From contig CADAEZ010000001.1 of assembly GCA_902787145.1 (NCBI GenBank), positions 84,813-148,812 on the forward strand: DNA of 64,000 nucleotides, given 5' to 3'. Source of the stretch: an uncultured Ruminococcus sp. (GTDB lineage: Bacteria > Bacillota > Clostridia > Oscillospirales > Acutalibacteraceae). Of the stretch, positions 9,219-55,657 are shown piece after piece; the first letter of the stretch is position 1, and the number at the start of each line of letters is the position of its first letter. The position numbers and the translations under genes were made by a program. The notes beneath the pieces were generated by a model. It did not search any database. It saw nothing but the letters and a program-made list of their open reading frames with translations, and had not been told where the DNA came from.

Positions 9219-9259
9219 ATTTTGCACAATTAAGCGAATAATCGAACTTTTGGCAATGG

Positions 9260-10105: not shown

Positions 10106-10116
10106 AAAGCGCCTCC

Positions 10117-10788: not shown

Positions 10789-10795
10789 ACGACAA

Positions 10796-11544: not shown

Positions 11545-11573
11545 TTGCAATTGAATAGTATTTAGTGTAAAAT
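11545..11573 (+). promoter_or_regulatory. Promoter of the polysaccharide operon
   Basis: TTGCAA (11545-11550), a 17-nt spacer and TAAAAT (11568-11573), about 40 bp ahead of the first gene. The 11345-11613 gap is AT-rich and also holds the start region of the divergent sortase operon. Confidence 0.55.
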
Positions 11574-11613
11574 ACAGAATGAATTTTTATGTGCAAAAAA
11601 AAGAGGTGCCATA

Positions 11614-12375: not shown

Positions 12376-12377
12376 TT

Positions 12378-13124
12378 ATGGCTAGGGAAATTAAAAGTAA
12401 AAAGAAAAACAACAATAATAACAAAAGCAACGAAACCCTTATGTTCCAGGTTACGGAATCATATAAAAAAGCCAGAACAAATCTCGTTTATTCCATAATT
12501 AAAAAGGGATGCAAAAAGATTATCATAACAAGCCCGTTTAAGAGCGAGGGAAAAACCACCACTACAATTAACGTGGCAATCGCGCTTTCTCAGCAGGTAG
12601 ATACAAAGGTAATGGTAATCGACTGTGACCTCAGAAGACCTACTGTACATTCGACTATGAACCTCAACTCCGAAAAAGGACTCGCAAACTTTCTTAACGA
12701 CGAGTGCGAGCTTGGCGAGATTATTACTCATTCCGAAAGCGAGAACCTTGACTTTATCACCTTTGGCGCTATTCCGCCGAACCCGTCCGAGCTTTTGTCC
12801 AGCGATAATATGACGGATATGGTGAGAAGGCTGGAGATGGTATACGATTATATTATTTTCGATACTCCTCCTATTAATATGGTTGTTGATATGGTTCCTC
12901 TTATCGGTCTTTCCGACGGTATCGTTATGGTTGTAAGACATAATAACACAACTTATCCCGAACTGAACAGAGCGGTCGAAACAATAAACCGAAACCAGGG
13001 CAAGATTCTCGGAATTATTATCAACGAGATTCCGACGCTTGAAACCGCCAAGGGAGGATATTACCTCTATCGCAGACGCCGCAGAGGAGGCGGATACTCA
13101 AGCTACGAGTCCAACGTGTATTAA
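12378..13124 (+). CDS. Polysaccharide tyrosine autokinase (CpsD/CapB-like)
   Basis: 248 residues. Walker A SEGKTTTT, Walker A' VMVIDCDLRRP and Walker B YIIFDTPP identify a bacterial tyrosine kinase of the ParA/MinD fold. The C-terminus is a tyrosine cluster (YYLYRRRRRGGGYSSYESNVY split between Arg and Gly runs) that would be autophosphorylated. It starts 2 bp after the chain-length gene. No CpsB/YwqE-type phosphatase was found in the operon, so the opposing enzyme must be elsewhere. Confidence 0.92.
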   Translation: MAREIKSKKKNNNNNKSNETLMFQVTESYKKARTNLVYSIIKKGCKKIIITSPFKSEGKTTTTINVAIALSQQVDTKVMVIDCDLRRPTVHSTMNLNSEKGLANFLNDECELGEIITHSESENLDFITFGAIPPNPSELLSSDNMTDMVRRLEMVYDYIIFDTPPINMVVDMVPLIGLSDGIVMVVRHNNTTYPELNRAVETINRNQGKILGIIINEIPTLETAKGGYYLYRRRRRGGGYSSYESNVY

Positions 13125-13159
13125 TATACTGCTTTTCGGCTGAAAGCAGAGGTGATTGT

Positions 13160-40225: not shown

Positions 40226-41029
40226 GTGTCTTTAAAATCATATTTTGAAAAAAACCGTAAAAGACTGAGAAAGCGTAAACGACTCATCGCCTTCCTTAGT
40301 ATTTTAGCAGTACTCGGTCTTACGACCGCGACTTACGCGTGGTTTACCGTCAACACATTTGCGGGGGTTGAGGACTTTGAACTTGATATCGCTACAGGCG
40401 AGGATCTTCGTATTTCAATGGAAAACCACGGCTCCGACATCGAGCAGTATGTCCATGTGCTAACTAACCCTATGATAGATTCATATCTTCGTAAATATGA
40501 TACATCCATCAAAGACATGATACTCTCTCCCGTAACAACAACTAACGGTCGTGATTATACATTCCAGCACGGCAGCAAGGCCTCTGAAAACAAGGCTTAC
40601 CTTGAGTTTAAATGTTGGTTTATCGCGACAACTGATATGTACGTCCACCTAACTACCGAAGGAACTGACGATGACGAACACGCCCACATCTTAGGCACAA
40701 GTGTTACAACAAGCTCTCCTGCTCCTCAAAGTGATGTTGTCAAGGCTATCCGAATGAGCTTTGACACCGACGATGGGTACAAGACCTATGAGCCCAACAA
40801 AGGAACACCGGCTACAAGACTGACTACCTTTGATTTGCCCAAGGGAACAATGGATTATAATGATTCAAACCAACTTTTCCATCTTGATAAGCTCACACCA
40901 AAGCAGGCGACCCTTCGTCTTTGGGCAGAAGGTGAAGACCCTGAGTGCGACAACGATGTTCAGCGCGCTAATTTAAAAATCGAGCTTTCTTTCCTCGGTT
41001 GTGACGAAAACGGCAACCCGATTTCATAA
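40226..41029 (+). CDS. SipW-dependent, TasA-like exported protein 1
   Basis: 267 residues from GTG 40226, six bases after AAGGAGGG; the ATG at 40224 is out of frame. A very basic start (RKRLRKRKRL) and hydrophobic core end in ATYAWFTVN (A37-free form: TYAWF at 36-40), the hallmark of leader peptides cut by SipW-type signal peptidase. The mature domain is acidic and ends with WAEGEDPEC (233-241), a signature shared with other proteins of this locus. No wall anchor. Likely a fibre subunit or tip/base protein. Confidence 0.8.
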   Translation: MSLKSYFEKNRKRLRKRKRLIAFLSILAVLGLTTATYAWFTVNTFAGVEDFELDIATGEDLRISMENHGSDIEQYVHVLTNPMIDSYLRKYDTSIKDMILSPVTTTNGRDYTFQHGSKASENKAYLEFKCWFIATTDMYVHLTTEGTDDDEHAHILGTSVTTSSPAPQSDVVKAIRMSFDTDDGYKTYEPNKGTPATRLTTFDLPKGTMDYNDSNQLFHLDKLTPKQATLRLWAEGEDPECDNDVQRANLKIELSFLGCDENGNPIS

Positions 41030-41066
41030 TCAATTGTAAACTGAAAAACCCGAAGGGGTGATAGAA

Positions 41067-41894
41067 TTGGCATTAAGAAAAAAGAATAAACAAATCGATC
41101 CCGCAACTCCTCATGAAGTCGCGAAAATGGGTCATAAGCACGAAGTCGCAGCGGCTAAGGACAAAAAGTCCAGTGTTTACGACCACTTCCACGCTCAGGA
41201 AGAAGCCAAAAAGATTGCGGACGCCAAAAAGCGTAAAAAACGCTATGCGATTATCCTTAGCTCTTTGGTTGCTATCCTGCTTGTAATGTATATCATCTCG
41301 ATGCTCCTTACACAGTGGGGCGACCTCACAATCTCAATCGGCGATCTCTACGACGGTAAGACGATTATGCTTTGTGAGAACTCAGCCTTCGAGGACGGCG
41401 TCGGAGTCAAGCTCAACGGCGGTGTGGTTAAGGAAGTTACCAATATCACCAAGTCGTGGTTGCCCAAGGGTCTCGATACCGAGAAGGACGGACAGCATAA
41501 CGGCAAAAACTACCTCGCCTATACGTTCTATCTCAAGAACACAGGCGACAAGGATTTGGAATACAACTCCACAATGACCGTTACAGGCGTTTCTAAGTCA
41601 GCTGACGAAGCGGTACGTTTCCAGATTTATAAGAACGGCAATGACAATGTCTATGCTAAAGGAACATATAAAGACCGCAAGACTGCCGAGACAGACGCAA
41701 CAAAGTTCGTTGACAACGACACAATTTTAAAAACCGAAAAATCTCCGCTCAAAGCCGGCGCGGTGGACAAATTCACCGTAGTCGTATGGGTAGAGGGTAA
41801 CGACAAAGAATGCGTCGACGCGATCCGCGGAGGCACAGTAAGAAGCCAAATGGTATTCGACGTTGTTCCCGATAATCCGGAGGACGCGAAGTAA
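41067..41894 (+). CDS. Membrane-anchored TasA-like protein without leader cleavage motif
   Basis: About 275 residues from TTG 41067, placed six bases after AAGGGGTG. A cytosolic, charged segment of about 58 residues (HEVAKMGHKHEVAAAKDKK) precedes one membrane helix (about 60-82) and an extracellular domain. There is no [A/S]-W-F motif; TQWGDL is the closest. The outer domain ends with WVEGNDKEC near residue 241, the signature of its secreted neighbours. It may be the membrane anchor or assembly base of the fibre. The unusually long inner segment could contact the ATPase encoded at 44390. Confidence 0.7.
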   Translation: MALRKKNKQIDPATPHEVAKMGHKHEVAAAKDKKSSVYDHFHAQEEAKKIADAKKRKKRYAIILSSLVAILLVMYIISMLLTQWGDLTISIGDLYDGKTIMLCENSAFEDGVGVKLNGGVVKEVTNITKSWLPKGLDTEKDGQHNGKNYLAYTFYLKNTGDKDLEYNSTMTVTGVSKSADEAVRFQIYKNGNDNVYAKGTYKDRKTAETDATKFVDNDTILKTEKSPLKAGAVDKFTVVVWVEGNDKECVDAIRGGTVRSQMVFDVVPDNPEDAK

Positions 41895-42366
41895 GTGAAG
41901 AACGAAGAACGGAGAGTGAAGAGCGTTTATGATATTTCCGGCGAAGGTCCGCTGAGAATAAAAACGCGAGACTTTGCTTTACGGATTATAAAACTCTATA
42001 AGCATTTAACAAACAATTATAATGAGTTTGTAATGTCAAAACAGATTCTACGTTCAGGAACAAGTATTGGCGCAAATGTTGCCGAAGCCGTTTACGGTCA
42101 AAGCAAAAAAGATTTTACAGCGAAACTTGGTGTTTCGCTTAAAGAAACATCAGAAACAGAGTATTGGTTAGATTTACTATATCAATCCGACTATATAAAC
42201 AAATTAGAATTTGAATCGGTTTATGCTGATGCCGAGGAAATAAGAAAAATATTAATCAGCAGCATTAACACAAGCAAAAAGTCGCTTGTAAAAGATTCTA
42301 AGTAAAGTAACAGAAGAACAGATAAAAAATAGTGACTTTTCACTCTTCATTCTTCACTTTTCACTT
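41893..42366. mobile_element. Four-helix-bundle cassette with terminal inverted repeats
   Basis: Arms of 32 bp (41893-41924 and 42335-42366, inverted) match at 25 of 32 positions, all mismatches being transitions; each is a run of GTGAAGAAxGAAGAG-like sequence. They enclose the four-helix-bundle gene. The left arm overlaps the stop codon of the preceding gene, as if the element had inserted at the end of that gene. No transposase is present, so any movement would need help. Confidence 0.6.
41895..42305 (+). CDS. Four-helix-bundle protein (23S rRNA IVP/S23 family)
   Basis: 136 residues from GTG 41895. The pattern FVMSKQILRSGTSIGANVAEA followed by FTAKLGVSLKETSETEYWLDLL (here seen from about 45-95) is that of the S23/IVP four-helix-bundle family, which is often found in rRNA intervening sequences and as free-standing small genes; the Avd protein of retroelements is a relative. 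The first residues (KNEERRVKS) are encoded by the inverted-repeat arm. Its function is unproven, and it seems unrelated to the fibre genes around it. Confidence 0.82.
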   Translation: MKNEERRVKSVYDISGEGPLRIKTRDFALRIIKLYKHLTNNYNEFVMSKQILRSGTSIGANVAEAVYGQSKKDFTAKLGVSLKETSETEYWLDLLYQSDYINKLEFESVYADAEEIRKILISSINTSKKSLVKDSK

Positions 42367-42384
42367 GGAAAAATCAGTATCATA

Positions 42385-42422
42385 CGTTCATCTTTCCTGG
42401 TTGCTGAACAGATGGATGAACG
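42385..42422 (+). other. Leader hairpin of the major subunit gene
   Basis: CGTTCATC (42385-42392) pairs with GATGAACG (42415-42422), about 55 nt ahead of the start codon of the 42476 gene. It may stabilise the mRNA of the most strongly expressed gene; no clear promoter is visible between 42306 and 42475. Confidence 0.4.
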
Positions 42423-42475
42423 ACGATAAATATTATTAAATGCCGAAAAGGCGAAAATTTTAAGGAGGATTCTCT

Positions 42476-43267
42476 ATGAAAACAAACAGAAAGAAGATGT
42501 TATTATCTTCAATCGCTATGCTTCTCGTTGCTCTCGTAGCATTAGGCTCCGCAACATACGCATGGTTCACATCTAACCCGAACGCAACTGCTTCAGGTAT
42601 CTCAATGAAGACCACTGCTGCTGCAGGTCTTGTTATCCGTACAGATACAGATACTACTTGGTCTCATAATGCTGATCTTAATAAGGGCGGCTCAACATTC
42701 AACGCTTCTCCTGTATCACAGGATCAGTCAACACCTGCTAACTTCTGGACAGTACTTGCTACTAGCGCTGACGCTTACGGCGCTAAGAGCGGCGAGTCAA
42801 TGACACCCGCTGTTGCTGGCACAGATTTCTACACAGAGAAGATTTACTGCAGACTTTCCGACGGTTCTGATGCTGAAGCTAATGCTTCCAAGAAAGTATA
42901 CGTAAAGGGCGTTACAATCACTGCTGCTACAGGCGCTACAATGCAGAACTGCATGCGCGTTGCTATTGCTGGACCTAACGGTCTCCTTGGCACATATGCA
43001 CTTTCAACAGCCGGCGCTAACGGCACACTCACAACTGCAGCTCAGACATCCGGATCATTCAATCCTGCTCTCACTGCTACATCAACATCTCTCAACGTTG
43101 ACACAGGCCTCACAGCTCTTGCAGCTTCAGGTTCCGACCTCACAAAGTACATCACAGTTTATGTATACCTCGACGGTCAGGATCAGGATTGCTACTCTGA
43201 TAAGGTTGGTACAGTTAACGCATCTGAGATCATCTCCAGCGTAGCTGTTGATCTTACACTTGCATAA
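42476..43267 (+). CDS. Probable major fibre subunit, TasA-like and SipW-dependent
   Basis: 263 residues with AAGGAGG seven bases before the ATG. The leader MKTNRKKMLLSS... ends in ATYAWFTSN, a clear SipW-type cleavage region. The mature part is Ala/Thr/Ser/Gly-rich with few charges, compact, and carries YLDGQDQDC near its end (about 231-239), a relaxed form of the locus signature. Codon choice is narrow (CTC, GCT, ACA), which suggests the highest expression in the cluster. The combination fits a polymerising subunit such as TasA or camelysin. The signal peptidase gene follows after a strong hairpin. Confidence 0.8.
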   Translation: MKTNRKKMLLSSIAMLLVALVALGSATYAWFTSNPNATASGISMKTTAAAGLVIRTDTDTTWSHNADLNKGGSTFNASPVSQDQSTPANFWTVLATSADAYGAKSGESMTPAVAGTDFYTEKIYCRLSDGSDAEANASKKVYVKGVTITAATGATMQNCMRVAIAGPNGLLGTYALSTAGANGTLTTAAQTSGSFNPALTATSTSLNVDTGLTALAASGSDLTKYITVYVYLDGQDQDCYSDKVGTVNASEIISSVAVDLTLA

Positions 43268-43309
43268 TTAATTGCCGATACTTTTATCGTAATAAATAAT
43301 TAATTATCA

Positions 43310-43337
43310 CCCACGGACTGCTTAGGCAGTCCGTGGG
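43310..43337 (+). other. Strong intercistronic hairpin without T-run
   Basis: A perfect 12-bp stem, CCCACGGACTGC (43310-43321) with GCAGTCCGTGGG (43326-43337), TTAG loop, followed by CAAAACAAAAG rather than T. It lies between the major subunit and signal peptidase genes. It may protect the upstream mRNA or reduce readthrough. Confidence 0.65.
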
Positions 43338-43365
43338 CAAAACAAAAGAATTGGGGAACTATTAT

Positions 43366-44157
43366 ATGAAAAAAAACGTTGTTAAAATTCTGAATATTGT
43401 CGTAACAGTACTTATCGTACTTGTACTGATTGCATCGGCATTTGTACTGGTTTGTACTTTTACTTCAAGAGAAGAAGGCGACGGAGTACCCAATTTTTTT
43501 GGTAAAGCTCCTATAAATGTCCTCACGGATTCAATGAAGGGCGATGGTGAACTCAATTTTGACAAAGGCGACTTGATTCTTTGTGAAGTTGTTAGTCCTG
43601 ACAACCGAGTAGACGCTAAGTATAGCGAGGGTGACGTAGTAACATTTCAGCAAGACGCAGACGGCGACGGCTATAATGACTATGTAACTCATAGAATCTA
43701 CAAGATTAATAAGGATGGAACTTATCAGACTAAAGGTGATAACAACGATACCTACGATCAGGACCCTAAAGGTACTACAGTGTTTTCCAATATACAAGCT
43801 GCAGATGTTGTCGCTGTATATAAGGGTTCAAAAATTGATGGTATTGGTAACTTTATAGGTTATATCCGCAGTCAGGAAGGTTTCTTCCTTGTTGTGCTGC
43901 TTCCTATGATTATCTTTTTCCTATATACCGCTGTTCGTGTAGTAATGAACGCTATGGCTTACAGTAAAGAAAAAGGTTTCGCAAAAGCTCAGGAGGCGAT
44001 CGCTAACGCCGACCTCACTGATGAACAGAAGCAGAAGGCTATTGCCGAGTACCTTGCCGCTCAACAGGGCGAACAGGAACCCGAGCAATCTCCCGCGGAG
44101 GCTCCCGAGACTATCGAGAAGCAGCCGGAGGAGCCGACAGAGTCTGAGGACGCTTAA
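43366..44157 (+). CDS. SipW-type signal peptidase I, copy 1
   Basis: About 263 residues from ATG 43366 (GGGGA upstream); an earlier start at 43333 lies inside the hairpin. N-terminal helix (7-32), catalytic domain and second helix (about 183-208). The catalytic residues are of the archaeal/eukaryotic (ER) S-H-D type: Ser56 in LTDSMKG, His109 in YVTHRI and Asp125 in TKGDNND, where ordinary bacterial enzymes have a Lys. A long Glu/Gln/Pro-rich tail ends the protein. It presumably cleaves the [A/S]-W leaders of the neighbouring proteins. Confidence 0.9.
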   Translation: MKKNVVKILNIVVTVLIVLVLIASAFVLVCTFTSREEGDGVPNFFGKAPINVLTDSMKGDGELNFDKGDLILCEVVSPDNRVDAKYSEGDVVTFQQDADGDGYNDYVTHRIYKINKDGTYQTKGDNNDTYDQDPKGTTVFSNIQAADVVAVYKGSKIDGIGNFIGYIRSQEGFFLVVLLPMIIFFLYTAVRVVMNAMAYSKEKGFAKAQEAIANADLTDEQKQKAIAEYLAAQQGEQEPEQSPAEAPETIEKQPEEPTESEDA

Positions 44158-44208
44158 TGTAACGTAAACGTGTGGTATGTCAGCAGTGCCACATGTTGTA
44201 GTTACATT
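44156..44208 (+). other. Long stem-loop after the signal peptidase gene
   Basis: AATGTAAC (44156-44163) pairs with GTTACATT (44201-44208), with an inner GTGG/CCAC pairing. It starts at the stop codon and is followed by AT-rich sequence ending in TTTATTTTTT. It could be a weak terminator that lowers expression of the ATPase genes. A smaller hairpin, AAAATCC with GGATTTT, is near 44334-44355. Confidence 0.4.
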
Positions 44209-44389
44209 ATCATAAGTATAATAAATATTTATTTTTTATCAAAAGAAAAACATAGAAAGATGAAGATAGCTTTCTTGTCTATTTAATTCGAGGTGCGGCG
44301 CAAAACGCCGGTAATGTTAAGAGTTATCTAACAAAAATCCGAGGTCAGAAGGATTTTAGTCAAGCAAGAAGTTCTTTAAGGAGAAAATT

Positions 44390-45916
44390 ATGGATACAGT
44401 ATTTAAGTTTCTCTTCCAATTTTTAGGACAGTTCTTCGGTTCTATCTGGAACGGAATTGTCTCTATACTCGGAGCGTTCAACATTCCTGAGTATATTTCT
44501 ATCATCACCCGTTATACTACCACCCTCGGCGGACTTGCCTGGGTAGTAGCAATCATCGCGATAGTTCTGCTTTTGGCGGTTATCGGATTATTAGTATTTT
44601 TAATAGTTGTTTCCTTAAAGAAATTCTTTAAGAATAAGCAGGCTCGTAAGGATACAGGCTCGCTTGTTCAGGAGGTTCAGGCACTCAACCGCGAGGTTAT
44701 GCGCCTTAACCTTGAGAAAGACAAGATTCTTTCGATGAAGGTTTCCCAGATCGGTCTTAATCCCAACGAGATTTCCGAGCTCACAGGTGAGGAGCTTGAG
44801 ACTCTTAATCAGGGTGAAGAAGACGGCGACACCGGCGAGGTTCGTTTCCTCAAACTTACTGCTCTCGACGAGGAGTGGGCGGATTATCAGCCGCCTGAGT
44901 ATGATAACGACATCACTCTCCCCGAGTTCTGTGATCGTTTCAGACTTTTCGCTTGCTCAAGACTTGGTCTTTACTATGATATTTCAATGATTCGTCGTTT
45001 CGTATCGGCATTCGCGTCAACAAGACTTATCGTACTTCAGGGTATTTCCGGTACAGGTAAAACCTCTCTTGCTTACGCTTTTGGTAAATACGTATGCAAC
45101 GATTCCGTAATTACACCGGTACAGCCTTCATGGCGTGACCGTTCCGAGCTTTTCGGTTACTTCAACGAGTTTACAAAGAAGTATAACGAGACAGAGCTCC
45201 TTCGTGCTATGTATGAAGCTAACTTTAACGAAAACGTATACCTGGTAATCCTCGATGAGATGAACATCGCGCGTGTTGAGTACTACTTCGCCGAGATGCT
45301 CTCCATCCTTGAAATGCCGAGACGTGACGAGTGGGTAGTAGACCTTGTTCCGTCACAGTGGAAGAATGACCCGAAGCAGCTTCACAAGGGTAAGTTCACT
45401 GTACCGCCCAATATGTGGTATTGCGGTACTATCAACAACGATGACTCGACATTCGCTGTTACTGATAAGGTATACGACCGTGCTATGCCGATTAACATTG
45501 ATACCAAGGGCGTTGCTTTTGACGCTCCGGATACACCTCCTGTTGTTATCAACTATCATCACTTCGAGGATATTCTTAACCAGGCTAAGGCTGAAAACCC
45601 AATCTCCGACGATCTCCTTAACAAGCTCGCTCTCGTAGACGACTACGTAATCGCTCACTTCCGTGTAGCATTCGGTAACCGTATTATGAAGCAGATTAAG
45701 GATTATGTTCCTGCGTACGTTGGTACAGGCGGAACAGAGATTGACGGTCTTGACTACATTCTTGCGCGTAAGGTATTGCGTAAGTTTGAGGCTCTTAACC
45801 TCTCTTATATCCGTGACGAAATTGACGGTCTGATAGCATATATGGATGAATTATTCGGCGAAGAGAACATGGGAGAGTGTAAGGATTACCTCCTCATGCT
45901 CAAGAAGCTTGCATAA
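44390..45916 (+). CDS. Membrane-anchored McrB-like AAA+ ATPase
   Basis: 508 residues. One or two N-terminal membrane segments (strongest at 49-76) are followed by a short coiled coil (about 88-115) and an AAA+ domain of the McrB/MoxR branch: Walker A GISGTGKTS (218-226), Walker B LVILDEMN (285-292), sensor-1 asparagines in GTINNDDSTF (about 349-350), and an Arg-finger candidate at 364. McrB of restriction systems is soluble and has a DNA-binding N-terminus; this one has a membrane anchor instead. The next gene encodes a DUF2357-like protein, the usual McrB partner type. AAGGAG lies before the ATG. Confidence 0.85.
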   Translation: MDTVFKFLFQFLGQFFGSIWNGIVSILGAFNIPEYISIITRYTTTLGGLAWVVAIIAIVLLLAVIGLLVFLIVVSLKKFFKNKQARKDTGSLVQEVQALNREVMRLNLEKDKILSMKVSQIGLNPNEISELTGEELETLNQGEEDGDTGEVRFLKLTALDEEWADYQPPEYDNDITLPEFCDRFRLFACSRLGLYYDISMIRRFVSAFASTRLIVLQGISGTGKTSLAYAFGKYVCNDSVITPVQPSWRDRSELFGYFNEFTKKYNETELLRAMYEANFNENVYLVILDEMNIARVEYYFAEMLSILEMPRRDEWVVDLVPSQWKNDPKQLHKGKFTVPPNMWYCGTINNDDSTFAVTDKVYDRAMPINIDTKGVAFDAPDTPPVVINYHHFEDILNQAKAENPISDDLLNKLALVDDYVIAHFRVAFGNRIMKQIKDYVPAYVGTGGTEIDGLDYILARKVLRKFEALNLSYIRDEIDGLIAYMDELFGEENMGECKDYLLMLKKLA

Positions 45917-46001
45917 TCAACATTTACTTACGGGACGTTAATAAACTTGACGTCCCATAAGGTGTTTTAGGTTTTACAATAGAAAAAGAGGTGAGTGATT
46001 C

Positions 46002-48521
46002 TTGGAAAATTTTGATAAGTATTATCGTTCCTACAAGTACATGCAAAAACACCTCGCTACAGACTTTACCGCTAACTATCTGACAACCAATATGGAGGAT
46101 AACGACAAAGGAGAGGACGTCCTCTCCGGTAAGCTCCATGAAAAGGTTATCGATATGGAATGGGTTACCGCGATTGAGGATACCCTTCCGTATATTGAAA
46201 AGGCGATCGACGAACAGCGCCGATTCATCGAAGAAAGAAACGAAGTTTACAGAGTTGACAAGGCTAAGATTATCAACAAGGATTCTGTAAAACACTTAAT
46301 TCAGCATACAAACTTTATCGACAACATCGAGGACGACGGAAGAGTTACTCCGAATAAGGTGCTCACAATCGAGCGTGAGGACTCATTCGAGACATATGAA
46401 AACCGCTTCCTTATTACATTAATCGAGAACGCGCTCAACTTTGTTGCGGATAAATACCGCAAAATGGTTGACGCGCCGACAGATACATTCGACAAGGTCG
46501 AGATTGAACGTGATATGGAGCTCAACAACCAACACGTTACATTCAAGATCGAATATTCAAACGAGGTTCGCGACGCCAAGGCTGACGACCTCGACATTAA
46601 GGATTTTGAGAAGCTCTCCGACTTCGACCGTGTACGTCGTATACGTGAGAAGCTCAACAGCTTTCTCAACACGGATATGATGAAGGCTCTCGCGAAATGT
46701 ATCCGAGTTAAGCCTCCGATCAACCGTACAAACCTTATGACAAAGAACCCGAACTATAAAGCGAGTTTGGATTTGTTCAACTATCTCTATGCCTACAACA
46801 AGCCCGGCTACGAGATTATCGGAAGAGACTTCTCCGGTAAGATGGATAAAGAAGTTCAGCAGGGTATGTATATGTCCATGGGCTTCCAGCACTTTATGGT
46901 TGCGATTTCCACCAACCCGGCGCTCAAAAAGCTGCTCGAGGAAAGATACCAGGAGCGTAAGGCGCGTCAGCAGGGCGGTCAGGACTCCGAAACTCTTGAG
47001 CTCGTAGAGAAGGTTCGTAAGGAAGAAATGAAGCTCCGCTTGCAGGAAATCCGTGAGCGTGAGAAAATCATTCGTGATCAAAAAGCCGAAATCGCAGCTC
47101 TCAAGCGTGAGATTGAGAAGCGCGACAAGCAAATTGAGTCATTAAAGAGCTCGATAAAGGCTCTCGAAGAGGAAGTCAAGAACCTCCGCAACCAGATTCA
47201 GCAGCTTAAGGCTGAGCTTATCAAGGCCAAGGAGAGAATCGAAGAACTCGAAGCCAAGGTTAAAGAACTCGAAGCTCGTATCGAAGAACTTGAGGCTCAG
47301 GTTGCCGCTCTCGAAGCCAAGGTTGCTGAACTCGAGAAGATTAAGGCGGAACTCGAAGCTAAAATCGCCGAGCTTGAGCAGATTATCGAGGAGCAAAAGG
47401 CAAAAATCGCCGAACTCGAAGAAATCGTTGCTCAGCAGAAAGCCCGTATCGAGGCTCTCGAGGCATATGTTGCCGAACTCGAACAAACTAAGGCAGAGCT
47501 CGAAAACAGAGTATCAAACCTTGAAGCTGAGAACGCACAGCAAAAAGCAACAATCGAGTCCCAGGCGGCTACAATTACAGAACAGAAAGACGCAATCGCG
47601 GCATTGGAGACAGAGATCTCCGGAGCCAAACAGCAGATTGCCGAGATTACAGATACACTTTCGCAGCGTGACAAGACAATCTCCGAGCAGAGTGCGAAGA
47701 TTGACGGTCTTAATAAGAACATTGATGACCTCAGCCACACGCTCGCTGATGAACGTGACGCCAGAAAGAAAGAGGTTGCAGACCTCAACAAGAGCTTTGA
47801 TGACGAGAGAAAATCTATCTCTGAAAAGCATACTAAGGAAATCGAGAAGCTTAACAGTGAGCACAAATCCGCAATGGATAAGCTCGATAAGCAGAAGGAA
47901 GCCGAAAAGGCTAAGATTCAGAAAGACGCCGACAGCCGCGTAAAGGCTGCTCAGAAAGAAGCCGACAAGAAGGCTAAGGACGAAATTAAACGCCAGGTTA
48001 CAAAAGCTCAGGCAGAGGCAAAGAAGGCCGCTAAGAAGGCTAACGATACCGCCGCTATGTACAAGAAAGAGCTTAAGATTGACCGCGGTAATGATGGACT
48101 TTTCAAGTACGACTTCACACTCGGCGCTCTCGGACTCCAGGCGCTCAAGGCACATACAATTGCCGAAACCGGCACAGACCTCGGCGCTTTGCCGCATACA
48201 AATGCTTTAAACAGTCTTTTCATAGTAAAGGACAACCGCAAAATTACTGTATGCAAGGGTTCCTTCAACCACCTCGAAGTCCTCAAAAACTTCAGAGGCA
48301 GCACAAACTTTGACGACTGCAAGGTTTTCCTCAAGGAAACTCTCGAAAATGTCGACAAAAGCTGTGCTTATATCACATACAAAACAATGGATAAGAATTA
48401 TATGAGCAACTTCGTAAGCTTCCTCTCCACCGAGGCGGGCTTTATGAACACTCAGCTTTTCCATAACAAAGGCCAGAAAAACGGTAAATCAATTATCGGT
48501 ATCTATTACTACAGAGGTTAA
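46002..48521 (+). CDS. DUF2357-like protein with very long coiled coil
   Basis: 839 residues from TTG 46002 (GAGGTG upstream). The N-terminal third (about 1-330) has the DUF2357-type motif IEREDSFETYENRFL near 125-140, as in McrC-like partners of McrB ATPases. About residues 335-700 are an almost unbroken coiled coil (repeated LEAKVAELE units). The last 150 residues form a separate globular domain (FNHLEVLKNFRGST, IIGIYYYRG). I see no PD-(D/E)xK nuclease motif. No signal peptide, so it is cytosolic; it likely works with the membrane ATPase, from which it is 85 bp away. Confidence 0.78.
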   Translation: MENFDKYYRSYKYMQKHLATDFTANYLTTNMEDNDKGEDVLSGKLHEKVIDMEWVTAIEDTLPYIEKAIDEQRRFIEERNEVYRVDKAKIINKDSVKHLIQHTNFIDNIEDDGRVTPNKVLTIEREDSFETYENRFLITLIENALNFVADKYRKMVDAPTDTFDKVEIERDMELNNQHVTFKIEYSNEVRDAKADDLDIKDFEKLSDFDRVRRIREKLNSFLNTDMMKALAKCIRVKPPINRTNLMTKNPNYKASLDLFNYLYAYNKPGYEIIGRDFSGKMDKEVQQGMYMSMGFQHFMVAISTNPALKKLLEERYQERKARQQGGQDSETLELVEKVRKEEMKLRLQEIREREKIIRDQKAEIAALKREIEKRDKQIESLKSSIKALEEEVKNLRNQIQQLKAELIKAKERIEELEAKVKELEARIEELEAQVAALEAKVAELEKIKAELEAKIAELEQIIEEQKAKIAELEEIVAQQKARIEALEAYVAELEQTKAELENRVSNLEAENAQQKATIESQAATITEQKDAIAALETEISGAKQQIAEITDTLSQRDKTISEQSAKIDGLNKNIDDLSHTLADERDARKKEVADLNKSFDDERKSISEKHTKEIEKLNSEHKSAMDKLDKQKEAEKAKIQKDADSRVKAAQKEADKKAKDEIKRQVTKAQAEAKKAAKKANDTAAMYKKELKIDRGNDGLFKYDFTLGALGLQALKAHTIAETGTDLGALPHTNALNSLFIVKDNRKITVCKGSFNHLEVLKNFRGSTNFDDCKVFLKETLENVDKSCAYITYKTMDKNYMSNFVSFLSTEAGFMNTQLFHNKGQKNGKSIIGIYYYRG

Positions 48522-48523
48522 TT

Positions 48524-49843
48524 ATGAAACACGCAGGGGAAAGCAGGCGTCTGTTTATGACTAAAAACTTAATATTGATGCTTGTTATCCTTGTTGTAGG
48601 TGTATTAGCAGTCTGGTCGTGGTTTACTGTTCACATGGATGTAACGGCAAGTGGATTGAGCGTTCAGGTTCGATATCCAAATGAGATTTCATTGGCTCCC
48701 GTGGTTTCGTATTATAACGCTGATGGGTCATTTAATCATGAGGGCCCCGGCGCTTTTGACGGAACGCTAAACTTTCCTATTAATCCTGAAGATAAGTATA
48801 TTTTCACCAAGGATTGTACCGGTGACGGCGAGACATTAATTGTTCCTGATTTTAGCGTTCTTAAAGATAAAGATAAAGCGGTAAAAGAAGGACGAATCGT
48901 TAATGTTAACGGCACATGGGAAGAAGCTATGTCCAATCTTGATATAAAGAAGATTAAAGAGAACAATCCCGAAACTGAGTTGGAAGCTCGTTATATGGAA
49001 TTTCCGTTTTACCTTCGTTCATCTACAAAGAGTTTCAGTATCGCTTCTATGTGCTGTGTTAAATCGGATACAGAGAAAACCAGCAACGGCAGTTTAGCTG
49101 ACGCAATCACCGATACTTCGAACGCAAAGAAGAGTTCCTATGGAAACTTTAATTCCGACGCATTAGTCGGAGCGATTCGTGTTGCGTTCCTAACACAGGC
49201 AGTTACTGATGTCACTCAGTCATTTAACAACGGCGCGGTAACATCTTCAACCGCTACATTGCAAACTTCAGCAAATTCTCAGCCTGTAGGCAGAGAGCTC
49301 ACAATGCTGTGGGTTCCCAGACCCGATATACATCTTGATATTTCCAATACAGGTCGAACAGATGATTGGGGTATCTCAACAGGCGTTTTGCCAACTACAG
49401 TTCTTCCTCATGAGGCAGAAAATCGTTGTTATACGCATGATTTTTATCTTCCGTCTTCGAATTCCGGTGTAACACAAGAATCGTACGCAGCCAAAGGTAC
49501 AGTCGGCAACGGTCCTGTTGTAAAAAACAAAGGCACAGGCGTTGCGCTTAAAGGCGAGGATGATTTAGGCTCTGCTTTTTTGGTTACAGACAAGGACAGA
49601 GTAACAACAAGAAATTACCCGGTTTTGGGAAAAGAATTTGATGTTTCATCTTCTCTTTCTTACAGAGATTATGTAAACGCTATCAGCCTTACCAGAGACA
49701 GCACTATACCTGAGTCTGATACTAACAAAGACAATTACTATGTTTACAGAATTACGATGAGGGTATGGATAGAAGGTACCGATTCAGAAGCTCGCCGAGC
49801 AATGGACGGCGGTGGATTTAGCATTCACATGGAAATCAAATAA
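48524..49843 (+). CDS. SipW-dependent, TasA-like exported protein 2
   Basis: 439 residues, starting two bases after the coiled-coil gene. The leader ends in AVWSWFTVH, with Ser-Trp in place of Ala-Trp. The mature domain has LSVQVRYPNEISLAPV and WVPRPDIHLD stretches and ends with VWIEGTDSEA (about 414-423), the locus signature without its final cysteine. No anchor motif. Probably a minor subunit of the fibre. No other family is recognised. Confidence 0.75.
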   Translation: MKHAGESRRLFMTKNLILMLVILVVGVLAVWSWFTVHMDVTASGLSVQVRYPNEISLAPVVSYYNADGSFNHEGPGAFDGTLNFPINPEDKYIFTKDCTGDGETLIVPDFSVLKDKDKAVKEGRIVNVNGTWEEAMSNLDIKKIKENNPETELEARYMEFPFYLRSSTKSFSIASMCCVKSDTEKTSNGSLADAITDTSNAKKSSYGNFNSDALVGAIRVAFLTQAVTDVTQSFNNGAVTSSTATLQTSANSQPVGRELTMLWVPRPDIHLDISNTGRTDDWGISTGVLPTTVLPHEAENRCYTHDFYLPSSNSGVTQESYAAKGTVGNGPVVKNKGTGVALKGEDDLGSAFLVTDKDRVTTRNYPVLGKEFDVSSSLSYRDYVNAISLTRDSTIPESDTNKDNYYVYRITMRVWIEGTDSEARRAMDGGGFSIHMEIK

Positions 49844-49874
49844 TCTTAATTATCCATAAAAAAGGGGTGAGAGA

Positions 49875-51140
49875 ATGGCAGAAAAGCATAAAGACCACAT
49901 TGCGATGTTAAAAAGCCTAAAAAAACAGCGCAAATATTTATCTGTGCAATTTTTCCTTTCCATCATCTCTTTAATAATTGCATTGACTGTATTTATTACA
50001 AGTTCGATGTCTTGGTTTGCTGTAAAAACAGCAAAGTTTGATGTTACAAATTTCTCTCTTGAGTGCGGAAAGGGACTTCGTGTAAACGACAGCGGTACCA
50101 GTGATTTTCAGTTGAAAAATGTCACAAAATACATTCTCCCCGCTTCTTCGGTCAACGGTAGAAACTTGTTTTTCCCGACTGACGGTTCGGATTTTTCCGA
50201 TAAAACAAAAGAGATAACTTATAGAAGCGCTAATGTCGGCGATAAGAATCAGAATTATATTCAGATTGATTTTGATCTTACAGCTCAGGCGAACAATACC
50301 GCGCTTTATATTAACGAAGAAAAAACCTTTATGAAGGTTAAAACTCAAATTTCAGATGCCAGCACTACTCTTGCTGCTCCTCTCAGGATGGCAATTTGGT
50401 CATCTGTTACAGACAGTGACGATATTCCTATGGCGCCGGTAGTTTTTAATCCTACCGGAAAAACATACACAACAGCGGCAGTCGAGAGTGTCGACCGTTC
50501 TTCGGGTAAAATTACGGGTAGTACGGGACGCCAGGTTTCTCACGCGTTCTCGGATTACGCATATGGCGGTGAGCCTGTTGCGGTTCTTTCAAAGGGTGTA
50601 GAAACTCACTTCTCGGTTATTATTTGGCTCGAGGGCGCTGACCCCAAGTGTACATATGAAAAAATGAGAGCAAAAGATATTATAATGGGTCTTGCGTTTA
50701 CTACATCTTGGGATAAGACTCAGGTAGTTCGCTTCAAGACAGACGAAACATGGATAACCGACTTGATTGGATCCGGATCGAACCACCACGCTCTTTCACT
50801 CCATTACAAGGATCATGACACCGGAGAGATTACCGACTTCGATATGTATCCTTATAATGAATCAGAATCGGAATGGTTCTGTAACATGCCGGGTGATATG
50901 ACAAATGAAGTATCGTTTGTGCTTACTCCTGGTAAGGATTCTGTCAACCAGAACACATATGAGTTTACGAAACACGACGTAAACGGTTCGTCAACTCTGG
51001 ACCGCGGTGTTAACAGGCTTTATGTTGCCAAGGGTTCTGCCGCATCAAATACAAGACAGTGTACAGGTCATTGGGTACCGCTTGGTGATAGCGATGGCGG
51101 CGGAAATGACAGCGGCGATATTGACGGTGACGATTTCTAA
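49875..51140 (+). CDS. SipW-dependent, TasA-like exported protein 3
   Basis: 421 residues, AAGGGGTG before the ATG. Leader ends in SSMSWFAVK. The first 265 mature residues are TasA-like and close with IIWLEGADPKC. A C-terminal part (about 275-410; FKTDETWITDL, ALSLHYKD, EWFCNMPGDM) has the spacing of a carbohydrate-binding-like beta domain, as in the next gene, and an acidic Asp/Gly tail ends the protein. Likely a fibre subunit with an added functional domain. Confidence 0.75.
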   Translation: MAEKHKDHIAMLKSLKKQRKYLSVQFFLSIISLIIALTVFITSSMSWFAVKTAKFDVTNFSLECGKGLRVNDSGTSDFQLKNVTKYILPASSVNGRNLFFPTDGSDFSDKTKEITYRSANVGDKNQNYIQIDFDLTAQANNTALYINEEKTFMKVKTQISDASTTLAAPLRMAIWSSVTDSDDIPMAPVVFNPTGKTYTTAAVESVDRSSGKITGSTGRQVSHAFSDYAYGGEPVAVLSKGVETHFSVIIWLEGADPKCTYEKMRAKDIIMGLAFTTSWDKTQVVRFKTDETWITDLIGSGSNHHALSLHYKDHDTGEITDFDMYPYNESESEWFCNMPGDMTNEVSFVLTPGKDSVNQNTYEFTKHDVNGSSTLDRGVNRLYVAKGSAASNTRQCTGHWVPLGDSDGGGNDSGDIDGDDF

Positions 51141-51169
51141 TGATATTTTACAGATAAGGAGGTGTCACT

Positions 51170-53206
51170 ATGAAAAAATCTTTTAACATAAAAAGCAAAC
51201 TTGGCAGAAAAAACGCGATTCTATCATTAGTGGCACTTATCCTCATTATGCTTACTTTTGTAAGTGTGTCATACAGCTGGATTGAGGAAGTTTCCAACGT
51301 TGAACTTACATCAAATGATGACGCTCAACAGACTCCTCTACATATTAGTAACAAAAAACTTGATTCAGATGTTGAAATCATTAACGACACCCAGCATTCT
51401 GTTATTGATCTTAACTCGTATTTCTACAGATCCGGTGATATGCATCTTTCCGCTTGCTATAGCAACGGTACTGATTTTAAATTCCCGTTTTCGGGTAGTT
51501 CAACATCAAACTATCGTGACGGTACAAAGGATGACGCCAACACAAACTACCTGAGCACTACATTCAGGGTTAAGTCTGTGGGCGCGGCAACATCGTATTG
51601 GTTCGAGAAGATTTCCGGTAAGGATAACTTCTTCTATAAGCAAAACTATACAAACGCAACAGATCCGGATACAAAAGAAAGAGTTGTAAGCAATACTCAG
51701 TCTGCGGACTCGAATGTTGAGCAGTATATACGCGCATCTATTACGGTAAACGGCGCGACTACTGTATATGCGTTTAATAATACAGGCGAATATAAAACCG
51801 CGTATAATACTACTTGTGCTGACGAAGATAAAAAATCCGTCAGAGACTATATGTATTATGACGAGAGCTTTTATAACTCTAACCCCTTGGGATCATATAA
51901 AAGAAGCTCTAATCCGGATAATAAGACAAATAAATTTAACCAGGGCTCCGGAGATAACCTGAATGGTAATACACTGTTTACAGTCGGTAAGGATAAAACA
52001 GTTACTGTCACTGTAAAAATTTGGCTCGAAAAGGGTGCTTCTGTAAACTCAATAGATTTTTCCAATATCAACCTTCAGCTCACCTCATCCTGGGCAAAGA
52101 CCAGACGTATCTATGTTCGTGATATGACAGTTAATGAATATGATTCCGGATTGGGATCAACGGGGACTAAATGGCTTGGTAATTCCAACGGAAAGCTTTA
52201 CTGGGCTATTAAAGACGATTCTGTTTCCGGCGGAATCATACATTTTGATGCTATGACGAGCTATGGCAATGGTATATATTATATAAATATTCCTGCAGTT
52301 TATAACGGTATGGAATGCATATTGTATCGTTGTAACAATGCGTGGAGCGTCGGAAATCATACCGACTCAAACGGCGTTAGTTATTGGGATAAATGGGAGA
52401 ATACAGCATTCCCAAATACATTTCACAGCGAGACTTTCTCGGTGTTCAGCCATAAGTACGCTACTTGGGAAGAGACTACAAACAACTTTTTCTTTATAGA
52501 TTCAGCTGAATTTGAGACATTGGGAGATACCCCGCACGCTTATCTTTGGGATCACAATTCAGAGTATACGGGTGGAGTTAACGCAAAAGTTGTTAAGAAT
52601 GCTAACTGGCCCGGAAAACCAATGACAAAACTGGCAACAACAACAAATAGTAAGAGTATTCGAGTATGGGAGAATTTCTTTGCTTCAACCTATGACAGAG
52701 CAGTACTCAGTGACGGTCGAGGCGGAGAGAATGACTCTAAAGGTTTACAAACTCAGGATTTGTGGGTTGGAAGTTCCCAGTATAATAATTACTTTGATAT
52801 GTCAACACTTTCGTGGCATAATTCAAAAGATTACTTTACTTACACTGATTGTTTTGTTATAGGAAACTTTAACCAAGAAAGCGGTCATACTACTAAAATA
52901 CGCATGGCGTATAATACGAATTTCGAGAATTCAGGTTCAACCTGGTTTATTTGTAAATTTTATAATAAGTCAGATAATGCACAGTACTTCTTTAAAATCT
53001 ATGATCAGGCACAAGGAACGAGTTACGGTCGCCCCAGCGGATGGCAGCATTGGGCATCCGGTTCAATCTCTGATGGTTATATGAGAAATATTGGAGCGAG
53101 TAATAACGAAGGTGATCTTGTCTGGATTAAAGATTTAAGTAAAGGAATGTACAAAATTTACTACGACTATAATTCACATAAAATGGAATGGTGGCCTAGT
53201 AGCTAA
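51170..53206 (+). CDS. SipW-dependent exported protein 4 with starch-binding-like modules
   Basis: 678 residues, TAAGGAGGTG before the ATG. Leader ends in VSYSWIEEV. A TasA-like part (to about 300, with VKIWLEKGA as a relaxed signature) is followed by two carbohydrate-binding-like domains. The second, about 440-535, has FFFIDSAEF, HAYLWDHN, NWPGKPMTKL and LQTQDLWV, which matches the CBM26 starch-binding pattern well. The first, about 305-420, is more distant (LYWAIKDD, MECILYRC). It could give the fibre its starch affinity, in line with the amylase encoded 11 kb upstream. Confidence 0.8.
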   Translation: MKKSFNIKSKLGRKNAILSLVALILIMLTFVSVSYSWIEEVSNVELTSNDDAQQTPLHISNKKLDSDVEIINDTQHSVIDLNSYFYRSGDMHLSACYSNGTDFKFPFSGSSTSNYRDGTKDDANTNYLSTTFRVKSVGAATSYWFEKISGKDNFFYKQNYTNATDPDTKERVVSNTQSADSNVEQYIRASITVNGATTVYAFNNTGEYKTAYNTTCADEDKKSVRDYMYYDESFYNSNPLGSYKRSSNPDNKTNKFNQGSGDNLNGNTLFTVGKDKTVTVTVKIWLEKGASVNSIDFSNINLQLTSSWAKTRRIYVRDMTVNEYDSGLGSTGTKWLGNSNGKLYWAIKDDSVSGGIIHFDAMTSYGNGIYYINIPAVYNGMECILYRCNNAWSVGNHTDSNGVSYWDKWENTAFPNTFHSETFSVFSHKYATWEETTNNFFFIDSAEFETLGDTPHAYLWDHNSEYTGGVNAKVVKNANWPGKPMTKLATTTNSKSIRVWENFFASTYDRAVLSDGRGGENDSKGLQTQDLWVGSSQYNNYFDMSTLSWHNSKDYFTYTDCFVIGNFNQESGHTTKIRMAYNTNFENSGSTWFICKFYNKSDNAQYFFKIYDQAQGTSYGRPSGWQHWASGSISDGYMRNIGASNNEGDLVWIKDLSKGMYKIYYDYNSHKMEWWPSS

Positions 53207-53236
53207 TATATTATAATCGATTAAGGTGGTGATACC

Positions 53237-54487
53237 ATGAATACAACTAAAAAGCTCGCGGTTCTTTGCATGGCAGCATTTATGGCTGTTGTCTGTGTAA
53301 TGCCGTCAACGTTTTCGTGGTATGCCCACAGCGGAAAGAACAGCGGTGACGCGTTTAAGGTGCAGGAATCTTTGATTCCGGTATCGAGTAGCTCGAATTT
53401 TTCGTCATCTAAAGTAACTCACAAGAAAGTTGACAAATTCGGAGTGGGAGACACAACTGTTTCAAAGGTTAATTTTGCAAGCAGTTCAACCAAGATTCAG
53501 TATTACAAGTCTACTTTCGACAATTCAAGCGGTTCCGGTGATGTATATGTGGACTTGGAACTAAAGAACGTCAGAAACAACAGCGGCGTCATGGTTGGCG
53601 TAACAAATCCTGTTGTTACAGAAAAAGGTTTTAATATCTCAAAAACTCCGGCAACAAACGATACAACAAGAGTTTATTTTATACCGACATCAAACTACAG
53701 TTCTTTCTGGTGGAATACGACTTCGTCCAGTAGTAGCTTTGATATGAATATCTGTTATTCTACAGGTTCAGGTGACCCGGTGAAAGAAAAAATGACTGTT
53801 CTTAGTAACACAAACTCCAATTTCAAAGATGGAGCTACAGGTGCGACAGCATCATATGTATGTTACTATGATTTGCCAAACAATACTACATCTTTCTTCT
53901 TCTTTAATCATTGGTATAATATTGCGACCGATAACAAGGACTGGAACCGTACTCCTGATATAAACGAGCTTATTCCCGGATCAGTATACAGCCTTAACGG
54001 TAAGAATATAGAGGATTCATATAAGTTGTTTAATTCAACTGTTAAAACTGATGTTGTAGCATTAAATTCCTACTATTCAGAAGCTAAGCTCAGCGTCGGC
54101 GGTTATATTGACGTCGGTTTGCAGAAAGAGAATGTAAATAATGAGGAAAACTTCACTCCTGATTACTATGGTACTTCAATATCTTATTCAATCCCTTCAG
54201 GCAAACAAAGCATGGCAACCGTAAATACAGACGGTCTTATCACAGCTCATGCCACAACAGATAACGAAACAAATAAGTATATTTTGCTTACAACCAGAGT
54301 TACCGGTGTGCTCGGAGATTATATCGAAAAGGAAACAAAGATTTATATTTCTAATTATATTGCGCAAATGACAATAGCAAAAAACATACGCGTCAAAAAG
54401 GGTGAGACAGTTGATGTTTATTGGTATGTAACTAATAAATTAGGCTTATCCGGCGACATAGCTGCGCAGATATACTGGACAATCTAG
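53237..54487 (+). CDS. SipW-dependent exported protein 5, Ser/Asn-rich
   Basis: 416 residues, AAGGTGG before the ATG. Leader ends in STFSWYAHS. The mature protein is rich in Ser, Asn and Thr; its last 110 residues include KQSMATVNTDGLITAHAT and VDVYWYVTNK, like a Big2-type domain. The WxEG signature is absent. One base separates it from the second signal peptidase, so the two are tightly coupled. Confidence 0.72.
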   Translation: MNTTKKLAVLCMAAFMAVVCVMPSTFSWYAHSGKNSGDAFKVQESLIPVSSSSNFSSSKVTHKKVDKFGVGDTTVSKVNFASSSTKIQYYKSTFDNSSGSGDVYVDLELKNVRNNSGVMVGVTNPVVTEKGFNISKTPATNDTTRVYFIPTSNYSSFWWNTTSSSSSFDMNICYSTGSGDPVKEKMTVLSNTNSNFKDGATGATASYVCYYDLPNNTTSFFFFNHWYNIATDNKDWNRTPDINELIPGSVYSLNGKNIEDSYKLFNSTVKTDVVALNSYYSEAKLSVGGYIDVGLQKENVNNEENFTPDYYGTSISYSIPSGKQSMATVNTDGLITAHATTDNETNKYILLTTRVTGVLGDYIEKETKIYISNYIAQMTIAKNIRVKKGETVDVYWYVTNKLGLSGDIAAQIYWTI

Positions 54488-54488
54488 T

Positions 54489-55238
54489 ATGGCTAAGAAG
54501 GAGAAAAAACCCGAAAGTCGGGTTATGAAAGCAGTACGATATAGTAAAAATGCTATTTTTGCCGTTTTACTCGTTGTGCTTGTGGGTATTTTGATAGTCA
54601 CAATGCTGGCCAGAGTAAGCGGCAAATCTCCGTCATTGCTGGGTTTTGCGGTGTATCGCGTAAGTTCGGGCAGTATGGAGCCTACGCTTAAGGTTGGCGA
54701 CGTTATATTATCCCAAAAATGCAATCCCGAGGATTTGGCAGAGGGAGACATTGTCTCGTATGAGGGATCAGTCGGCGAGTTCAAAGATAAAATAGTTACT
54801 CACAGAGTTCAAACTGCCCCATATAAAGAAAACGGAGAATACTATCTGGTTACAAAAGGCGATAATAACCCTGCTGAGGATTCGCCGATATTGTTTAAAC
54901 AGGTATGCGGCAAGATGATCCAAAAGCTGGACTTCCTCGCTATGATATACGATTTCTTTATCACGCCGTGGGGACTAATCTCGATTATATTACTTATTAT
55001 CCTGGCGTTCTTTAACGAGATAATTATTTTCGTAAGCGCGCTGCTTGGAATAGAACCTAAGGACAATAATAATTCTGTTGAGAATATAATCGAAAAATAC
55101 CGCAACGAGAATATTACGAAAGCGCTCGATAATATAGAGATAGACGAGTTGATCGAACAGTCAGGCATATCGAACGAAGAACCCGATTCAGTTTCAGAAG
55201 AATCGGACAATTTTGATAACAAAACAAAAAGTGAATAG
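54489..55238 (+). CDS. SipW-type signal peptidase I, copy 2
   Basis: 249 residues. N-terminal helix (about 20-42), catalytic domain with Ser62 in SSGSMEPT, His105 in IVTHRV and Asp125 in TKGDNNPAED (S-H-D type, no Lys), second helix (about 156-183) and a charged Asn/Glu tail. It is closer to Bacillus SipW in its SGSMEPT motif than copy 1 (TDSMKG), so the two may prefer different substrates. Copy 2 closes the gene block that starts at 48524. Confidence 0.9.
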   Translation: MAKKEKKPESRVMKAVRYSKNAIFAVLLVVLVGILIVTMLARVSGKSPSLLGFAVYRVSSGSMEPTLKVGDVILSQKCNPEDLAEGDIVSYEGSVGEFKDKIVTHRVQTAPYKENGEYYLVTKGDNNPAEDSPILFKQVCGKMIQKLDFLAMIYDFFITPWGLISIILLIILAFFNEIIIFVSALLGIEPKDNNNSVENIIEKYRNENITKALDNIEIDELIEQSGISNEEPDSVSEESDNFDNKTKSE

Positions 55239-55484: not shown

Positions 55485-55657
55485 CATTGTATATAACTAT
55501 GGGTAAGTGTGCGCAAAAATGCGTAAACGCTATGGTCAGATAGCAACTTTACCATATATATCTCCGAAAATTGAGTTATACACAAAGATTAAAGGTCAGA
55601 AAAATCTTTGCCGTTTTGATTTTCAATTTTCAATTTAACAAATCGGAGGTTAGATTT

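Follow-up and report, generated by a model that had tools for sequence, protein, structure and literature searches.

The McrB family of AAA+ nucleoside triphosphatases (NTPases) is largely defensive; McrB is stimulated by McrC, and McrBC relatives without an active nuclease are already known (Bell et al., eLife 2024; PMC11090510). The same paper gives the name CoCoPALM to a group whose analysis is deferred there, in which McrB homologues with an NxD motif, usually followed by E or D, are fused to an FtsB-like transmembrane/coiled-coil domain and linked to signal peptidases, and in which the McrC homologue, a DUF2357 protein, usually has a coiled coil (PMC11090510). Amongst surface fibres, those of TasA and the archaeal threads are donor-strand assemblies (PMC9674648; PMC9715654). 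Statements about these three papers are drawn from parts of their text. The present analysis concerns an ATPase gene, and the partner gene that follows it, in a stretch of 64,000 nucleotides from a gut bacterium, an uncultured Ruminococcus sp. (contig CADAEZ010000001.1, positions 84,813 to 148,812; hereafter the window). It is proposed, with a probability of roughly 0.65, that the pair is a CoCoPALM-type McrBC derivative which has moved from nucleic-acid cleavage to the biogenesis of surface fibres that depend on SipW.

The window pair fits CoCoPALM as a putative member, placed there by its features rather than by accession. The likeness lies in an NNDD-bearing McrB homologue with a transmembrane segment, a DUF2357 partner with a coiled coil, and linked signal peptidases; unlike in CoCoPALM as described, the FtsB homology of the anchor is seen weakly, as a match of the ATPase to FtsL_Actino (NCBIfam) at E 9e-4, below cut-off. 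An earlier, sequence-only reading of this DNA knew of no described system like the pair, which was mistaken, since CoCoPALM had been named (PMC11090510). Its coordinates for the two open reading frames (ORFs), 44390–45916 for the ATPase and 46002–48521 for the partner, were verified, and both belong to a single series of genes on one strand that spans 40226–55238.

The ATPase matches AAA_5 in Pfam (23.6 bits, cut-off 22) and, below cut-off, McrB in NCBIfam, and its family profile matches E. coli McrB structures (6hz4, E 1.6e-9). One strong hydrophobic segment is present, at residues 42–82. A comparable segment occurs in all 80 ATPase ORFs of more than 490 aa from loci L001–L088, the window copy included, with a lowest 19-residue hydrophobicity mean of 2.94. 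It is followed, by eye in the alignment, by a short coil-like stretch and then by the AAA+ domain. These results bear out the description of a McrB-motif AAA+ domain fused to a membrane anchor, and the further claim that the anchor replaces the DNA-binding part, as the N-terminus is the transmembrane segment and no DNA- or modified-base-binding N-terminal domain is amongst the seven Pfam families listed. The signature of the ATPase is GTINNDDSTF. Ungapped, the NNDD string would also fit NxxD; NxD is favoured by the KVxDRA context, which is common to most of the control McrB homologues introduced below. Across all 19 aligned ATPases the residues of Walker A, DEMN and NNDD show no variation, which argues for hydrolysis.

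In the partner, DUF2357 exceeds its Pfam cut-off (24.8 bits against 23.3) when the N-terminal 323 residues are scanned alone, so that the DUF2357-type N-terminus first reported is recovered once the coiled coil is trimmed. A scan of the whole partner was set aside as uninformative, since the 25 families listed, out of 32, are all by name coiled-coil noise and DUF2357 is not amongst them. At E 0.01, DUF2357 is matched by 29 of 30 partners. Alignment of a profile of the partner family (36 rows) to nine McrC homologues of control loci pairs partner residues 47–320 with residues 229–457 of the L212 McrC (probability 97). The PDDEXK_7 nuclease of L212 occupies residues 435–590, and the partner match stops near its start. 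PDDEXK_7 was present in all three control partners scanned (L212, L220 and L222), at 148–160 bits. By contrast with these, no nuclease was found in the window partner by Pfam on its N-terminal 323 or C-terminal 160 residues, by profile alignment to nuclease-bearing McrC, or amongst the 50 Foldseek matches listed, in agreement with the absence of a visible nuclease motif noted earlier. The search with hidden Markov models (HMMs) that had been suggested for both proteins thus matched McrB and DUF2357 and did not find PD-(D/E)xK; an intact nuclease domain in the partner would have refuted that reading. The partner is without a detectable nuclease; a highly divergent one is still conceivable. The N-terminal partner profile found no convincing PDB chain by sequence.

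The structure model of the partner has helix at residues 329–412 and 420–722, some stretches of which have a predicted local distance difference test (pLDDT) value below 50. The coiled coil of the earlier description therefore stands, while its length of some 365 residues does not, the modelled helix (329–722) being longer. The long coil is not essential, since short partners exist: those of L192, L193 and L195, with 360–379 residues, comprise little beyond DUF2357 and by eye hardly any coil, and their loci keep SipW neighbours. The region C-terminal to the helix, residues 726–839, is modelled as an alpha/beta domain (block pLDDT 74–91). When the whole partner model was searched with Foldseek, the first 11 matches were FakB/DegV structures, including all five at E ≤1e-3, with low TM-scores (0.35 by target length). 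The output carries no aligned range, and the placement of this match at residues 726–839 is indirect, following from the alpha/beta model there and from the matching C-terminus of the L072 partner, whose last 330 residues hit Pfam DegV at E 7.9e-5, below cut-off. FakB/DegV structures are fatty-acid-binding. The domain is exchangeable and is missing from many relatives' partners; because of this, and of the partners of 360–379 residues, the common core of the system is taken to be the transmembrane ATPase and DUF2357, with the coil and the FakB-like domain as optional parts.

Matches to the ATPase profile at E 1e-20 occur in 49 of the 398 genomes of the phylum sample; only that in the source genome itself is strong, and the others score 135 bits or less. 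The order sample has matches in 30 of 295 genomes, with a best match of at least 300 bits in each, and the class sample in 21 of 291, six of them weakly only (≤121 bits). A cut at 500 bits was chosen after a gap had been seen between strong matches, of about 300 bits and above where near full length, and weak ones of up to 135 bits; intermediate matches (224–478 bits) were listed apart. A first set held 58 named loci, 52 of them above 500 bits and six, truncated or broken, dropped. Of the 43 loci whose upstream flank reaches 3 kb or more, 41 have a SipW gene within that distance and the remaining two have one at 3.0–3.2 kb. A partner follows within 1.2 kb downstream in 46/46. A downstream SipW gene is present in 28 of the 38 loci whose flank there reaches 9 kb or more, and an ORF with a SipW-type signal in 41/41. 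The second set consists of 40 stretches picked by hand from the ATPase matches, neither all of them nor a random draw, of which 33 exceed 500 bits; all 33 contain NNDDST. Here SipW is within 3 kb upstream in 30 of 31 loci, the exception being L197, where SipW lies downstream and a signal-motif ORF is absent; a partner follows in 30/30, a downstream SipW gene is present in 16/18 and a SipW-type-signal ORF in 29/30. None of the seven second-set loci below 500 bits (L186, L187, L189, L199, L200, L210 and L211) has SipW. The neighbourhood survey suggested by the sequence-only reading accordingly showed SipW close to the pair in almost all relatives whose flanks were long enough. The gene arrangement is kept down to 48–53% identity in the ATPase and about 23% in the partner, over many families.

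For comparison, 20 control McrB loci were taken from other families of the phylum, 19 from weak phylum-sample matches and one from the class sample. They have SipW in 0/20 and a transmembrane segment in 0/20, and a signal-motif ORF in one (L221); in four (L216, L218, L220 and L226) the flank is shorter than 3 kb on at least one side. Both the SipW HMM, built from the relatives' own SipW genes, and the signal motif, a regular expression of our own, favour matches near relatives, and the independent check of the linkage is TIGR02228 across family genomes. At E 1e-10 it is present in 137 of 300 family genomes: in 36/36 with the ATPase (E 2.2e-133 or better) against 101/264 without it, amongst which eight with weaker matches were counted (Fisher p 3e-14, relatedness ignored). 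In the family sample the ATPase thus implies SipW, and not the reverse.

Both SipW-type peptidases of the window (43333–44157 and 54489–55238) pass the TIGR02228 cut-off, and the pair is indeed sandwiched between them, with SipW-signal ORFs around it. The proteins F1 to F7 all have a hydrophobic segment near the N-terminus, which in six of the seven ends, by eye, in a W[F/I/Y] SipW-type signal, F2 being without one; signals were assigned by motif and hydrophobicity alone, and the proteins are predicted substrates. Pfam on F1–F7 and NCBIfam on all but F6 gave no match above cut-off, TasA family included. The F1, F2 and F3 families align mutually (probabilities 99.3, 96.6 and 98.2), the F2 family, an alignment made of relatives only, over just 87 and 123 columns. 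In the N-terminal tail of the F2 family a [TSV]P[EHQ]x[VL] motif is seen by eye in 27 of 29 dereplicated rows, a possible candidate handle. The N-terminus of F3 is strongly conserved, whilst the remainder varies greatly; the F3 model is mostly beta, a beta-sandwich (pLDDT 83.5), and has as its best PDB match Saci_0406, the subunit of archaeal threads (7pnb; E 4.2e-3, probability 0.92, TM-scores 0.24 and 0.32). The SipW-type signals, together with this weak fold match, suggest that the window proteins are likely to be surface-fibre proteins.

Table 1. Features of the fibre locus in the window, with coordinates, strand and basis of assignment
Feature	Coordinates	Strand	Basis
McrB-type AAA+ NTPase, 508 aa, one N-terminal transmembrane segment	44390..45916	+	Pfam, NCBIfam, profile, hydrophobicity
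DUF2357/coiled-coil partner, 839 aa, TTG start	46002..48521	+	ORF, Pfam, model, profile alignment
DUF2357 (McrC N-terminal) region of partner, residues 47–320	46140..46961	+	Pfam, profile alignment
Coiled-coil region of partner, modelled helix residues 329–722, one break	46986..48167	+	structure model
C-terminal alpha/beta domain of partner, residues 726–839, FakB/DegV-like	48177..48518	+	model, Foldseek
SipW/archaeal-type signal peptidase, upstream of ATPase	43333..44157	+	TIGR02228 58.3 bits, cut-off 51.85
Second SipW/archaeal-type signal peptidase	54489..55238	+	TIGR02228 94.5 bits
F1, putative fibre protein, SipW-type signal, homologous to F3	40226..41029	+	alignment
F2, membrane-anchored fibre-locus protein without WF signal, predicted cytosolic tail	41058..41894	+	hydrophobicity, alignment
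F3, putative fibre subunit, SipW-type signal SATYAWFT, beta-sandwich model	42476..43267	+	alignment, model, Foldseek
F4, WSWF signal, directly downstream of partner	48524..49843	+	ORF, motif, hydrophobicity
F5, MSWF signal	49875..51140	+	ORF, motif, hydrophobicity
F6, YSWI signal	51170..53206	+	ORF, motif, hydrophobicity
F7, FSWY signal	53237..54487	+	ORF, motif, hydrophobicity

The fibre operon also contains a gene for a four-helix protein of the 23S_rRNA_IVP family (41895–42305; Pfam 96.8 bits), which recurs in the loci of several relatives in differing slots. Downstream of the second SipW gene is a 2015-aa ORF (55571–61618) with an N-terminal hydrophobic segment, whose sole family match is an InlB repeat below cut-off. 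In two relatives, large fibre-locus proteins (L066:17221–20061 and L067:14718–17474) end in an amylase-type module with 34–46% identity to the repeats of an alpha-amylase encoded in the window (36873–39776), hinting at carbohydrate-binding fibres in these two. The idea of starch-binding fibre tips was dropped, the module being present in only 2 of 148 loci searched. The source genome is 2.0 Mb in 102 contigs, with a completeness of 87.5%, and its closest named relatives are metagenome-assembled genomes of Ruminococcus and other Clostridia, several of them ruminant-derived.

In a maximum-likelihood tree of 73 AAA+ domains, rooted at the midpoint, the 44 SipW-linked rows form one group (support 94/98). 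Their neighbours are five SipW-less rows (two each from L186 and L199, and L189), joined to them at a fork with support 95/93; L187/L200 and L210/L211 lie further out, and the 20 controls apart. A transmembrane segment is present in eight of the nine SipW-less intermediate rows, all but L211, and the idea that such variants lack one was abandoned. Because of these eight, membrane anchoring probably predates the link to SipW; the deeper order is unsure, with several long branches. In L186 (7718–11851) and L199 (7531–12103) two transmembrane ATPases flank one DUF2357-type gene, without SipW, and in these loci and L189 (9062–10402) a large protein with, by eye, an N-terminal hydrophobic anchor is encoded nearby, with a transglutaminase core in L186 and L199. 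This arrangement perhaps represents a second version of the motor, again linked to the surface. The L211 ATPase stands in one run (1508–13721) with genes that by eye are VWA-, PP2C- and kinase-like, perhaps an older conflict-system context. At L200 (6709–9213), the partner of the SipW-less transmembrane ATPase has, by eye, zinc-ribbon-like cysteines and a repeated C-terminal domain, and no Pfam match at 0.01.

It is considered very probable that the pair takes part in some way in making these fibres or in controlling their formation; a role as motor or scaffold, as first proposed, would be one form of this. The likeliest role would be to work on fibre precursors at the membrane, driven by nucleotide. 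By analogy with McrBC biochemistry, the AAA+ domain would assemble into a hexameric ring on the cytosolic side of the membrane, with hydrolysis stimulated by the DUF2357 partner. Fibre precursors would be held in the membrane with their N-terminal tails, long in F2, in the cytosol, and the ring might grip or remodel these tails or the signal anchors and so time their hand-over to the SipW peptidase. Outside, the freed N-terminal strand would complete the next subunit by donor-strand assembly. A part as spacer or docking element would fall to the coiled coil and to the C-terminal domain, which is FakB-like in the window and exchangeable. That this precursor-handling step is correct in detail is possible, with the balance somewhat against it. 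The boldest form of the proposal, a nucleotide-driven machine for SipW donor-strand fibre assembly, the first of its kind, in which a membrane ring extracts precursors or hands them over to the signal peptidase and some members have a lipid-sensing FakB-like arm, is more tentative still.

The strongest rival explanation is that the pair senses rather than drives, as a membrane NTPase switch that would monitor the state of fibres or precursors through their cytosolic tails and report through the coil and the FakB-like domain, for instance on the state of lipids or to gene expression. The resemblance of that domain to lipid-binding FakB/DegV, and its exchange or loss amongst relatives, would be expected of a regulatory input. 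The constant neighbour is, however, a peptidase, and in the four relatives with ORFs listed no regulator gene was seen to be retained next to the pair, no systematic search for one having been made; the sensor explanation is judged unlikely. The pair could instead be a static scaffold, the coil and ring positioning the export site, for instance at a pole, with nucleotide turnover serving ring assembly only. Such a role would suit the long coiled coil of the window partner and its close relatives, yet the nearly coil-less partners of L192, L193 and L195 keep their SipW neighbours, and the invariance of the Walker A, DEMN and NNDD residues points to active hydrolysis, which makes a scaffold quite unlikely.

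It is very unlikely that the pair still acts in defence, as an McrBC relative anchored in the membrane that protects the cell surface or comes into action when phages attack, the fibre operon being part of that defence or its trigger. Its family is largely defensive, as noted above, and the AAA+ domain matches the PADLOC candidate PDC-M26A at 140.9 bits; a control McrB also matches, at 188.7 bits, for which reason PADLOC matches were discounted as evidence of defence. Against such a role, the pair has no nuclease or other recognised effector, and SipW and SipW-signal genes are its constant neighbours. No defence gene was recognised by eye in four loci, the neighbourhoods being without a PADLOC scan. 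Occurrence mainly in defence islands without fibre genes, which would have told against the sequence-only reading, was not seen: relatives adjoin fibre-type genes, no systematic defence-gene scan having been made. Finally, the SipW-linked ATPases form one clade, and chance or inherited synteny of a pair unrelated to fibres would account for this; given the conservation of the arrangement at the low identities reported above over many families, and the absence of SipW from all 20 controls, that explanation is already disfavoured and extremely improbable.

A role in SipW-dependent fibre biogenesis has its own difficulties. The linkage is silent on which step the pair drives. The loci are related and cannot be counted as independent observations, and the controls were drawn from other families. 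The ATPase is not generally required, since the 101 ATPase-less family genomes have a SipW-type peptidase, and anchoring alone is no evidence of fibre work, because the SipW-less ATPases of L186, L199 and L189 have it too. The structural evidence is thin in places: the F3/thread match is weak, with none at 1e-3 and TasA not amongst the 50 Foldseek matches listed, and the F3 sequence profile finds no fibre structure amongst PDB chains. For the partner, a McrC chain is absent from the 50 Foldseek matches listed and from those of the N-terminal profile, and the C-terminal 160 residues have no Pfam match even at E 10. In addition, no motor is named for TasA or thread fibres in the parts of PMC9674648 and PMC9715654 used here. 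If the fibre-biogenesis reading is nevertheless true, an anti-viral restriction motor has been rebuilt as a tool for surface fibres, the loss of the nuclease and the gain of the membrane anchor can be traced on one tree, and TasA- or thread-type fibres, for which those texts name none, would have an energy-driven assembly machine.

With McrBC type IV restriction of E. coli K-12 the window pair shares an AAA+ domain and a DUF2357 partner in tandem genes; it differs in that neither a nuclease nor a DNA-binding N-terminal domain was found and a transmembrane anchor is present instead. It resembles CoCoNuT systems in its NxD McrB clade and coiled coils, some CoCoNuT also being without a nuclease (PMC11090510), and is unlike them in its fibre locus and in having no HEPN nuclease, helicase or RNA-binding domain amongst the family matches listed. 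The tapA-sipW-tasA operon of Bacillus subtilis likewise combines a SipW-type peptidase, substrates with a cleaved N-terminal signal and fibre proteins (PMC9674648). Unlike that operon, the window encodes no protein with a TasA family match in Pfam or NCBIfam (for F6, Pfam only). We know of no AAA+ pair in the tapA operon. The archaeal threads, whose subunit Saci_0406 (PDB 7pnb) is the best Foldseek match of F3, are donor-strand fibres with a cleaved N-terminal signal; the F3 match is weak, and thread assembly may be spontaneous or proceed via unidentified machinery (PMC9715654). Judged by title, the literature collection searched holds, on SipW with McrB or on SipW, TasA and Ruminococcus, no such pair except in the CoCoNuT paper and its preprint, and no analysis of CoCoPALM was found in it beyond Bell et al. 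(2024) and the preprint. In the parts of PMC11090510 considered, the cargo, nuclease state and C-terminal domains of CoCoPALM are not analysed; what is new in relation to that text is the lack of a detectable nuclease, the FakB-like domain, the likely cargo, the transmembrane-anchored relatives without SipW, and the tree.

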